Part shown: positions 888 through 6,399 of the stretch, piece after piece
Layout of the letters: each line of letters opens with the position of its first letter
Position numbering within the stretch: position 1 is the stretch's first letter
Assembly (NCBI GenBank): GCA_023703575.1
Contig: CP097969.1
Span: 1,397,517 to 1,461,516, forward strand
Reading direction: 5' to 3'
DNA: 64,000 nt
Source of the DNA: SAR86 cluster bacterium
Lineage (GTDB): Bacteria > Pseudomonadota > Gammaproteobacteria > Magnimaribacterales > Magnimaribacteraceae
Notes under the pieces: generated by a model
What the model was told of the DNA's origin: nothing
Seen by the model: only the letters and a program-made list of their open reading frames with translations
Databases searched by the model: none
Program-made: the position numbers and the translations under genes

Positions 888-3104
<2,217 letters not shown>

Positions 3105-3119
3105 CTAAAGCAAAATATG

Positions 3120-3150
3120 AAAAGGGGTTAATTTATATTAACCCCTTTTT
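3120..3150. terminator. Bidirectional terminator between katG and the PnuC-family gene
   Basis: A 13-bp perfect stem (3120-3132 with 3137-3149) closes a 4-nt loop. The arms begin with four A and end with four T followed by a fifth T, so it reads as an intrinsic terminator on both strands. It ends katG and the convergent thiamin operon. The stop codon of the PnuC-family gene (3138-3140, minus strand) lies inside the stem. Confidence 0.85.
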
Positions 3151-3689
3151 GTTTGAAGCATAGATCTTTTCCAGGCCAGGTAACCAAATACTATTATTAT
3201 TAAATAACCAGTAAAAAGAAAAGCCGTTATGTATAGCTCTCTTGAGATAAATAGAAATACTGATACAAAATCAATTACAAACCAATAAATCCAATTTTCA
3301 AGCAATTTTTTAGCTACCATATAAGTGGCTACAACAGCACCCCAAGTGGTAAATGCATCAAAATATGGAAGCGATGCTTTAGTATATTTAGCTAATAGAT
3401 AACCAGAAATGATTGTCAAAACAATTATCAGCATCAATGATTTTAGATGATTACTAAAATTCCAATTTGTCACAAGTAATTCAGTTTCTTTTACTTGCCA
3501 CTGCGACCATCCATATAAAGCCATCAAAATATAAAATATTTGCAAAAAGGCCTCCATGTAAAGTCCTGCTGAGTACATTATGAAGAAGTAAAGCGATGAG
3601 CTTAAGATAGCCGCAAGCCAACATAGAATATTTTGCTTAACTGCAAGTAAAAGATAAATAATTGCCAAAGAGACAGCAAGAATCTCCAT
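3138..3689 (-). CDS. pnuT: PnuC-family vitamin permease, probable thiamin transporter PnuT
   Basis: Inner-membrane facilitator of the PnuC family (183 aa, about seven hydrophobic segments). The signature W-x2-W-x3-D is visible in ENWIYWFVIDF, and the N-terminal part has the NILCWLAAILSSSLYFF and GWSQW patterns of PnuC proteins. Family members carry nicotinamide riboside (PnuC), riboflavin (PnuX) or thiamin (PnuT). Thiamin is inferred because the gene lies 9 bp downstream of a TonB receptor controlled by a TPP riboswitch. The transported vitamin would then be trapped by phosphorylation in the cytoplasm; no kinase gene is next to it. Confidence 0.85.
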   Translation of the reverse strand: MEILAVSLAIIYLLLAVKQNILCWLAAILSSSLYFFIMYSAGLYMEAFLQIFYILMALYGWSQWQVKETELLVTNWNFSNHLKSLMLIIVLTIISGYLLAKYTKASLPYFDAFTTWGAVVATYMVAKKLLENWIYWFVIDFVSVFLFISRELYITAFLFTGYLIIIVFGYLAWKRSMLQTKRG

Positions 3690-3698
3690 TGATGTTAT

Positions 3699-5792
3699 CT
3701 AAAATTCATATCGGAATGTTAGACCATAATTACGTGGATCCCCATGACGTTCATACAAAGTATCTTCGAAAGCAGGAGGTTCATTACCGAAATAAAACCC
3801 TCTTAAAGAATAATATTCATCAAAAATATTTCGTATCCAGAAATTTAAATTAATTTTATCTTTCTTATAAATCATATTTATATTTGTAAGGATGTAATCA
3901 TCGGAAGTATTATTATGAGAATCTGAATAATAAAAGTCACTTTTGCCATTCAAGTCCAATAGTAATTCCAGATTATTTGATATGTCCCAGCTCAATCCTG
4001 CAGAAAAGCTATAGTCAGGCGCATGTGCTTGCTCCCTCCCCTCTAAATCAGGTCTTGATTGATACTGCCTTATTTCTGTTTCGAGTATTCCTAAGTTTAA
4101 AAACATACTGATAGTGTCTGAAATTTCAGAATTTAGACTTAACTCGGCTCCATAATTTCTACCTTCAGCTGCATTTTTTGTTAAAAATAAGAATGTATTA
4201 GGGTCTTGTGGGTCGACTTGAGTTGATGACAAAACTTGTTGATCTCTTCTGTCTGAATAAAAAATTACTAAATCTAAAAAAGTTTTTGAAGAAAAGAAAT
4301 ATTTGCTTATTCCAAACTCGTAGTTGGTTAGGTATTCGGGTGAATAAGATACTGCTTCTATTAGTGAAGAACTATTTAAACCAGTTCCTAAGTTAAAACC
4401 ACCCTGTTTGTAACCCTTTGCAATGCTCAGATAGTATTTAAGATCATTATCTAAAGAGTTAATGAGAGATATTTTTCCTCCATTCATTGAATCATCAGGT
4501 GTGAATAATTCTTCATTTGAATCTAAATAATCAGCATCCCAATCCTCCCATCTAAAACCAAAAGAGAGCTTTAATGTTTCACTTATAAGGTAATCCAAAT
4601 TTCCAAAAAGGGATTTGCTTTCTGAAGAATAATCACTAGAGAAAAATGATTCACTGTAGAAAGTTCCGAAACCATCGTTTGGATCTCCGTAAGCCCCATC
4701 ATCTTTTCTATCATTGGATTCATCAATTTCATAAAATGAAAATCCAGCTATCCACTGTATTTGATTAGAAAAATTTGTATCCAATTTATTGGATAGTATT
4801 CTAAGTTCTATATTAGAAGTTTCTCTATGTCTAAGAGTTTCAGAAAAATAATCATAGACATAGGGAAAGTGTGACTGTGCATTACCCCAATCGGCATCGT
4901 AACTAAAAACTACATCTGTATCTGTTTTAGAATATAAAACCTTGAGAGTATTTAGCCTGTTTATAAATTCGAGATTTACACCTAGAGCTCTTGTATCTTG
5001 AGAGTCCATACCAGGTCTATCTGAAAGGGTATTTAGAGAGCCATCAATAGTCCATATATCTGCAGGATCATCAAAATTGTTATCAAAATAGACTAGATCA
5101 AAAGAGGTGGCATCATTAATCAACCAATTAGTCTTGAGTCTAAGAGACTGCTCATCTTTCCTAGAAGTGTCATCTCTGTTTAAAAATAAATTTTCCCTGA
5201 ACCCATCAAAATCTTCTTTCCTTATACTTAATCTCGATTTTAAGCCTTTTGTGAAAGGAATATTAATTGACGCACTCAAGTCGTTCCTTCCGTAATTACC
5301 AATGGTTATTTCTCCGTTTGCTTCAAATAAGTCCTTAGGATCCTTAGTTTTAATGTATATCATTCCTGCAAGTGAACTAGCACCCATCCTAGAACCTTGG
5401 GGACCTCTATAAACTTCTACTTGGTCAATATCGTATACAGAAGCTATACCTGCTTGACCTGAAAAGTCTATGTCGTCAATCAAAAATCCAACTGAAGAAT
5501 TTGGAGTTCCTTCATATCCAGATCGTTCTCCAATTCCTCTGATCTGAAAATATCGCGGTCTTGAATCACTAGCGGCAAAATTAAGATTTGGAATTAAGTA
5601 AGTGATATCCTCAAAATGCTTGTATTGCTTTTTTTGGATATCTTCATCATTAACAAGAATGAGACTGCTATCAACTTCACTTAAATTGGTGTCCCGCCAA
5701 TCACCACTTGCGACAATCTCATCAATTGCGTCAGTATGAGCAGGAAAGAGAATAAAGAAAACTGAAAAAAATAAAAATATACGTTTTAGCAT
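3699..5792 (-). CDS. TonB-dependent outer-membrane receptor, probably for thiamin
   Basis: Outer-membrane, TonB-energised receptor (697 aa). The first about 22 residues form a signal peptide (MLKRIFLFFSVFFILFPAHTDA). DEIVASG just after it resembles a TonB box. A plug domain follows with RYFQIRGIGERSG and VEVYRGPQGSRMGASSLAGMI, then a long beta-barrel ending YGLTFRYEF, with the C-terminal aromatic residue needed for barrel assembly. The substrate is inferred to be thiamin or a derivative from the TPP riboswitch immediately upstream and the PnuC-family permease downstream. Expression should fall when TPP is abundant. Confidence 0.9.
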   Translation of the reverse strand: MLKRIFLFFSVFFILFPAHTDAIDEIVASGDWRDTNLSEVDSSLILVNDEDIQKKQYKHFEDITYLIPNLNFAASDSRPRYFQIRGIGERSGYEGTPNSSVGFLIDDIDFSGQAGIASVYDIDQVEVYRGPQGSRMGASSLAGMIYIKTKDPKDLFEANGEITIGNYGRNDLSASINIPFTKGLKSRLSIRKEDFDGFRENLFLNRDDTSRKDEQSLRLKTNWLINDATSFDLVYFDNNFDDPADIWTIDGSLNTLSDRPGMDSQDTRALGVNLEFINRLNTLKVLYSKTDTDVVFSYDADWGNAQSHFPYVYDYFSETLRHRETSNIELRILSNKLDTNFSNQIQWIAGFSFYEIDESNDRKDDGAYGDPNDGFGTFYSESFFSSDYSSESKSLFGNLDYLISETLKLSFGFRWEDWDADYLDSNEELFTPDDSMNGGKISLINSLDNDLKYYLSIAKGYKQGGFNLGTGLNSSSLIEAVSYSPEYLTNYEFGISKYFFSSKTFLDLVIFYSDRRDQQVLSSTQVDPQDPNTFLFLTKNAAEGRNYGAELSLNSEISDTISMFLNLGILETEIRQYQSRPDLEGREQAHAPDYSFSAGLSWDISNNLELLLDLNGKSDFYYSDSHNNTSDDYILTNINMIYKKDKINLNFWIRNIFDEYYSLRGFYFGNEPPAFEDTLYERHGDPRNYGLTFRYEF

Positions 5793-5793
5793 G

Positions 5794-5872
5794 CAATTCC
5801 TCCGCCATTATTGTATGGATCAGGTTCAAAGAGTTTCAATGATCTCAGGCCGAAGCCACCCCTTTGCAATTG
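5794..5872 (-). promoter_or_regulatory. TPP (thiamin pyrophosphate) riboswitch with embedded Shine-Dalgarno
   Basis: Read on the minus strand, the conserved THI-box elements appear in order: GGGGTGGC, GGCCTGAGATC, TTTGAACCTGATCC and GGCGGAGGAA. P1 can form from CAATT (5868-5872) and AATTG (5794-5798). The 3' conserved strand carries GGAGG (5799-5803) only 6 nt before the receptor ATG at 5792, so ligand-stabilised P1 would hide the ribosome binding site directly. No separate expression platform or terminator is needed or seen. Confidence 0.95.
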
Positions 5873-5994
5873 ACTAATTTTAGCAAAGCCTTATAGACTT
5901 AACCAGAAACTTATCTTCAAATAGTCTTCTCGTGAAAAAGAATATAAAATATATAAGCCTTTCAAATTAATTCATAAATTAGCTGCTATAAAGA

Positions 5995-6399
5995 ATGTCG
6001 AATTCTCTTGAAAACTGTGATGTGAGGTCTATATCAATAGGCTCCAAAATTTCACTTCTTTTTAAAGAAAGTGCAATATTTGAAGAGCAAACTGCCCTCA
6101 TAGGAATAGTAGAAACCGTTAAATATTCAGGTGATAAGAATTCTGACTTTCCAGAAATACTGGATTTGCTTGATAAGATATGGATTCAGATTGGTGAAAA
6201 TAAAAGAATATATGGAGATAAAAAAAGGAGTAATGACTCAATCAAGGAAGAAATATTTTTTAGATTAAGCAAACAGATGATAGAAGATTTTAAGCGTACA
6301 GAAATGATGTACGCCGGCGTTAATCATCCCAAATATAATATTAAAACTAAAGAAATAGCATTATCTACCGTGAAAAGTCTCGCAGAAGATTTTAAATAA
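5995..6399 (+). CDS. Hypothetical protein, 134 aa
   Basis: I do not recognise this protein. It is soluble, with no signal peptide or membrane segment, and rich in Lys, Glu, Ile and Ser. The first 50 residues look beta-rich (SISIGSKISLLFKES, ALIGIVETVKYSG); the remainder looks helical and charged. The ATG at 5995 begins about 120 bp from the divergent riboswitch, so this gene probably has its own promoter. A second small orphan gene follows 35 bp downstream on the same strand. The length of the open frame and lineage-like codon use support a real gene. Confidence 0.6.
   Translation: MSNSLENCDVRSISIGSKISLLFKESAIFEEQTALIGIVETVKYSGDKNSDFPEILDLLDKIWIQIGENKRIYGDKKRSNDSIKEEIFFRLSKQMIEDFKRTEMMYAGVNHPKYNIKTKEIALSTVKSLAEDFK

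Follow-up and report, generated by a model that had tools for sequence, protein, structure and literature searches.

A TPP riboswitch on the minus strand of the window (the whole 64,000-nucleotide stretch of SAR86 cluster bacterium DNA analyzed here) carries, within its own 3' part, both the Shine-Dalgarno (SD) sequence of a TonB-dependent receptor gene and the base that opens that gene's start codon. Judged by sequence and covariation, the element is a real TPP riboswitch, and it very probably represses translation by direct occlusion of the SD and the AUG. The aptamer, the genes and this type of overlap are already known. What this case contributes is an order-wide, near-invariant fusion in gammaproteobacteria and its comparison with spacer-bearing relatives. 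The features of the locus are as follows.

5877 to 5882, minus strand: -10-like box TAAAAT, from a positional statistic, with TG at 5885-5884
5780 to 5873, minus strand: RF00059 aptamer match, model positions 1-105, the last 12 positions being coding sequence
5864 to 5868, minus strand: 5' strand of P1, UGCAA (RF00059 alignment, covariation)
5821 to 5824, minus strand: 5' strand of P4, CCUG, its fourth base in a G-G apposition in place of the usual G-U pair
5805 to 5818, minus strand: P5 stem-loop (RF00059 alignment, covariation)
5799 to 5803, minus strand: SD sequence GGAGG, its first G being the G of the conserved junction 'CG' and GAGG the 3' strand of P4
5792 to 5796, minus strand: 3' strand of P1, UUGCA, its final base being the A of the ATG (5792) (RF00059 alignment, covariation)
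3699 to 5792, minus strand: TonB-dependent receptor (omr1/OMthi-like), 697 aa, Pfam Plug and beta-barrel domains
3138 to 3689, minus strand: PnuC/PnuT-family permease, 183 aa, PF04973 at 168.5 bits, 9 nt after the receptor

The match to the TPP model RF00059 runs from 5873 to 5780 on the minus strand and spans model positions 1-105 of 105, with a score of 56.8 bits (E 1.8e-8) that exceeds the curated gathering cut-off of 54.3 bits by only 2.5 bits. No other RF00059 match was found in the genome (1,591,815 bases on one contig, 95.4% complete). The sequence-only reading had recognized all the THI-box elements on this strand, which the full-length match corroborates, and had named the lack of a covariance-model hit as grounds for giving up the assignment; a hit was found. 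Its span, 5794 to 5872, was about right and ended 2 nt short at the 3' end, where P1 reaches 5792. In the 3' part of the aptamer, GGCGGAGGAATTGCATGC, GGAGG at 5803-5799 is separated from the ATG by a 6-nt spacer (AATTGC), just as had been read. The overlap had been described as one of P1 and SD; it is the start codon that enters P1, and the SD is shared between P4 and the junction next to it. This junction G contacts the bound ligand in the thiM structure of E. coli. Relative to the RF00059 family, the window aptamer matches over the full length of the model, but its score is close to the cut-off and its fourth P4 pair is non-standard.

Covariation was assessed in a MAFFT alignment of 47 sequences (48 distinct aptamers from the first 54 matches in the order, with L014 left out), using a structure written by hand from the RF00059 alignment for the pair counts. 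Forty-nine of the 95 columns were invariant and standard pairs filled 92.7% of cells. Both sides of a pair had changed in 45 cells, where shuffles averaged 12.8, and none of 500 shuffles reached the observed covariation score. Counted by pair, both-side changes were not distinctive (6 pairs, against a shuffle mean of 4.7, reached in 94 of 500). P1 was paired in every sequence, with a middle pair that was C-G in 34, U-A in 11 and U-G in 2, and compensatory changes were found in P1, P3 and P5. The fourth P4 pair was G-G in 53 of 54 order sequences and G-A in the other, and standard in none, as compared to 76 of the 113 scored sequences from other Pseudomonadota (5 of the 118 were unscorable). 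Covariation therefore backs the P1-P5 architecture, with the exception of the fourth P4 pair (0/47).

Across 199 genomes of the order, 105 RF00059 matches were found, in 104 of the genomes. A match was present in 18 of the 40 most complete ones, in a search whose strict filters may miss weak matches and over an order in which many genomes are incomplete. The start codon lay between -1 and +2 nt from the end of P1 in 104 of the 105 matches, which are related by kinship and are not independent events. Its A coincided with the last base of P1 in 75 matches, followed it by 2 nt in 27 and preceded it by 1 nt in 2, as placed from the end of the Infernal match (model position 93 being the last P1 base), from which small nearby indels can shift it by 1-2 bases. 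The sole exception was L014 (genome G019), where the ATG lies within the aptamer, 1 nt past GGAGG; this layout fits the occlusion model badly. Because 104 of the 105 TPP matches repeat the window's layout and P1 shows compensatory changes, its occurrence in the window is not due to chance. The SD and the first base of the start codon are part of the aptamer, which is one of the features expected of a direct-occlusion riboswitch.

Sequences upstream of the aptamer were inspected for a predicted mRNA start. The -10-like region of the window reads TGCTAAAAT, and the TG together with TAAAAT is what we take to be an extended -10 form. Of 53 distinct upstream sequences, 51 had a TANNNT that begins 17 to 13 nt before P1; 300 mononucleotide shuffles gave a mean of 13.9 and a maximum of 22, and other 5-nt windows gave 2-20. 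In a second set from the order the box was found in 49 of 50 (one of the 51 had no upstream sequence). The -35 region of the order's upstream sequences showed weak similarity only, with no single clear position for a box. A generic promoter scan missed the TAAAAT box, and its two predictions were at chance level. The position of the box, about 15 nt before P1, suggests an mRNA start at about 5869-5872, 1-4 nt before P1, which is the 5' end of the aptamer. If the predicted promoter is right, the 5' leader would be the aptamer alone. A probable -10 box, the aptamer, the ribosome site and the start codon would then occupy about 100 nt, making this a very compact vitamin riboswitch.

Ligand-free folding was carried out with ViennaRNA on 53 order sequences (L030, with GAAGG as its SD, was skipped). 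The median of the mean P1 pair probability was 0.14, from calculations that include neither tertiary contacts nor TPP and so show no more than that P1 on its own is weak. The median cost of opening the SD was 3.8 kcal/mol, and P4 paired AGG with CCU in the four folds printed. Part of the SD is thus already paired in P4 without ligand, leaving the predicted ON state less than fully open. In the 100 nt that follow the aptamer, the order sequences showed no excess of complement to the aptamer 3' strand (mean z +0.69, 0/54 below -2), compared to a mean z of -0.64 with 15% below -2 in 118 other Pseudomonadota. The claim of the sequence-only reading that aptamer and switch are one element is supported on three counts: there is no gap before the start codon, the 5' end is predicted at the aptamer and there is no downstream excess of complement. 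The sequence comparisons support the view that no separate expression platform is present, with the 5' end as a prediction.

Taken together, the layout points to the following mechanism. The transcript would begin 1-4 nt before P1, with the aptamer as its whole 5' leader. When TPP is absent, P1, with its five A/U-rich pairs, would be mostly open and P4 would hold the SD by only three standard pairs, such that a 30S subunit could compete for GGAGG and the AUG. When TPP binds, the two arms would be held together and P1 would close, a step that we infer from what is well established for the TPP aptamer. P4 and the junction would then bury the SD, and P1 the A of the AUG. Only at low TPP would the cell make the TonB receptor and, from what is probably the same transcript, the PnuC permease. 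They would import thiamin or a phosphorylated form into a cell in which neither ThiC nor TPK is recognizable and ThiE is not confidently found.

The known system nearest in function is E. coli tbpA, where, in the available part of the source, TPP hides the SD of the thiamin transport operon, an anti-P1 stem forms in the ON state, and both translation and mRNA level are controlled (PMC11487190). The tbpA (thiB) start codon is about 43 nt past P1, a gap that SAR86 does not have. By analogy with the mRNA-level effect at tbpA, occlusion in SAR86 could be merely the trigger, with blocked translation leading to Rho-dependent termination or decay. We consider such control at the RNA level a minority possibility of some weight: it agrees with the generic scan, which found no intrinsic terminator in 5700-6050, but with the SD and AUG placed as they are, an effect on translation is the simplest initial event. 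The anti-P1 stem of tbpA offers another precedent, in which a strand hidden either upstream in the leader or early in the coding sequence would compete with the aptamer by strand exchange. A candidate in the window, an upstream CUUUGC that could pair with GCAAAG as an antisequestor, was rejected; it overlaps the proposed extended -10 and, by eye, is missing from most of the 54 upstream sequences. Excess complementarity was absent both upstream and downstream in the 54 SAR86 sequences, and strand exchange appears unlikely. That the element is a relic, no longer responsive to TPP and kept as a good ribosome binding site, could be read from the low RF00059 score and the non-standard fourth P4 pair in 54 of 54, but is highly improbable given that 47 distinct sequences share 49 invariant columns and have compensated pairs in three stems (P1, P3 and P5), and P2-P5 would be needless for a ribosome binding site alone.

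Direct occlusion by the aptamer itself can be compared with what has been described elsewhere. According to the available text of PMC1262725, THI elements are among the riboswitches that hide the SD and start codon, and base stems that overlap the translation start without extra hairpins seemed to occur only in Actinobacteria. The stem and start overlap in the same way here, and the window case belongs to a gammaproteobacterial order. In direct-occlusion riboswitches such as SAM-III, preQ1-II and others, aptamer and expression platform form one unit, as the portion of a review available states (PMC10907184); the single-unit design is common to these and to the SAR86 element, and the aptamers differ. 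No description of the SD/start overlap in SAR86 was found in open-licence literature, and an earlier mention is possible.

The 118 comparison matches from other Pseudomonadota comprise 89 from a class search (rows above the cut-off outside SAR86, minus G333:C186) and 29 from a phylum search (new rows that came with a locus). Eight of the 118 had a start codon between -3 and +7 nt from the end of P1, a count that was curated partly by eye. The automatic criterion also gave eight direct cases (L079, L085, L090, L129, L145, L185, L186 and L187), from which L085 and L090 were dropped as N-terminal extensions of thiC; L122 (ATG at +1, with an SD-like AGGG outside the motif list) and L169 (ATG at +7) were added by eye. 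L088 was left uncounted, its open reading frame having 19 codons. This frame runs from the end of P1 with thiE-like coding next (by eye) and is possibly a leader ORF or the result of a frameshift. The direct cases precede genes for PQ-loop proteins (L079, L145), a PnuC-family protein (L122), ABC ATPases (L129, L169 and, by eye, L185), a sodium:solute symporter (L186) and a TonB receptor without a BLAST match to the window receptor (L187). At L079 and L145 the aptamer overlaps the start of small PQ-loop membrane proteins, which are possible thiamin transporters.

Counting only ATGs that follow an SD and lie more than 8 nt beyond P1, the first was at quartiles of 57, 74 and 96 nt (n = 96 of 118). 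By tblastn, thiC lay downstream of 80 of the 118 aptamers and of no direct case (0/8 versus 80/110 others, p 6.7e-5; 84/110 when four assigned by eye are counted, p 2.5e-5). This association of direct occlusion with transporters was seen post hoc and should be taken only as a lead. The automatic direct cases outside SAR86 were not significantly enriched for G at the SD position (3/8 versus 19/110, p 0.17). Four receptors of other Gammaproteobacteria resembling that of the window (32-34% identity; L074, L075, L173 and L189) start 48, 73, 68 and 50-53 nt downstream, respectively. These related receptor genes have a spacer that SAR86 does not, which allows an evolutionary comparison, at one kind of gene, of a switch with a spacer and a switch without one. 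SAR86 may have lost the spacer rather than never having had one. By eye, the aptamer 3' strand at the gammaproteobacterial receptor genes L075, L161 and L173 seems able to pair with a strand before a T-run, a terminator-like arrangement.

A broader proposal, to which we give equal measures of belief and doubt, is that the SAR86 omr1 riboswitch shed its expression platform and fused aptamer, SD and AUG, giving up the fourth P4 pair for a perfect GGAGG, and that direct occlusion by TPP aptamers may arise repeatedly, mainly at transporter genes as opposed to thiC.

The controlled genes had been named as a TonB receptor and a PnuC-family permease, and Pfam domains match both. The order is receptor then PnuC in all 33 loci tested (20 picked to spread over genera and 13 named). 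By hand count, riboswitch and PnuC were both present in 36 of 61 genomes and both absent in 22; the riboswitch occurred alone in two (G029 and G037), and PnuC alone in one, G008, as a fragment at a contig start. All nine relatives in family f3 of the SAR86 order (G036, G039, G042, G045, G048, G051, G054, G057 and G060) had neither riboswitch nor PnuC. A receptor search of genome contigs gave 14 loci, comprising 12 from the SAR86 cluster, one from Gammaproteobacteria MED-G142 and one distant locus in Steroidobacter. For the permease, TIGR01528 (PnuC, nicotinamide riboside transporter) scored 66.2 bits against a cut-off of 42.45, and no NCBIfam receptor model scored above its cut-off for the window receptor. 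Since NCBIfam names the permease PnuC and no receptor model fits, thiamin specificity rests on the riboswitch and on precedent, by analogy with which thiamin, not nicotinamide riboside, would be the permease substrate.

That precedent comes in part from Bacteroides, where the available text describes the TonB receptor OMthi and PnuT adjoining TPP riboswitches, and their loss raising the thiamin need of a biosynthesis mutant (PMC5613172). omr is listed among TPP-riboswitch genes in metagenomes in the portion available of PMC2211319. In two SAR86 clusters omr1 lies near a TDP riboswitch, and SAR86 members are called auxotrophs, in what is available of PMC10881298. The gene kinds in the window are the same as in these omr1 and OMthi-pnuT systems; the SD/start overlap is absent from the descriptions in the accessible parts of PMC5613172 and PMC10881298.

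Thiamin scavenging, as the sequence-only reading had suggested, fits the gene content of the genome. Neither the ThiC nor the TPK Pfam model matched in the genome, the latter being a model that matches 7 of 14 controls and does not match E. coli. ThiE reached only 18.7 bits, below the 27-bit cut-off, with an internal stop. ThiL was present at 257.7 bits. Seven APH-family kinase matches were found, and assignment of a named thiamin kinase was rejected, the best scores with the ThiK model (41.3 and 40.4 bits) falling far under its cut-off of 299.45. With ThiL present but no TPK match and no kinase at the ThiK cut-off (G000:C1:214401-215297 and 581379-582065 of this genome), either an APH-family kinase acts on imported thiamin or what enters the cell already carries phosphate (TMP/TPP). 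Through this locus, uncultured marine bacteria of the SAR86 type are linked to the regulated uptake of vitamin B1 or a related compound. Beside the permease, at 930-3104, lies a catalase-peroxidase-like ORF, recognized by eye.
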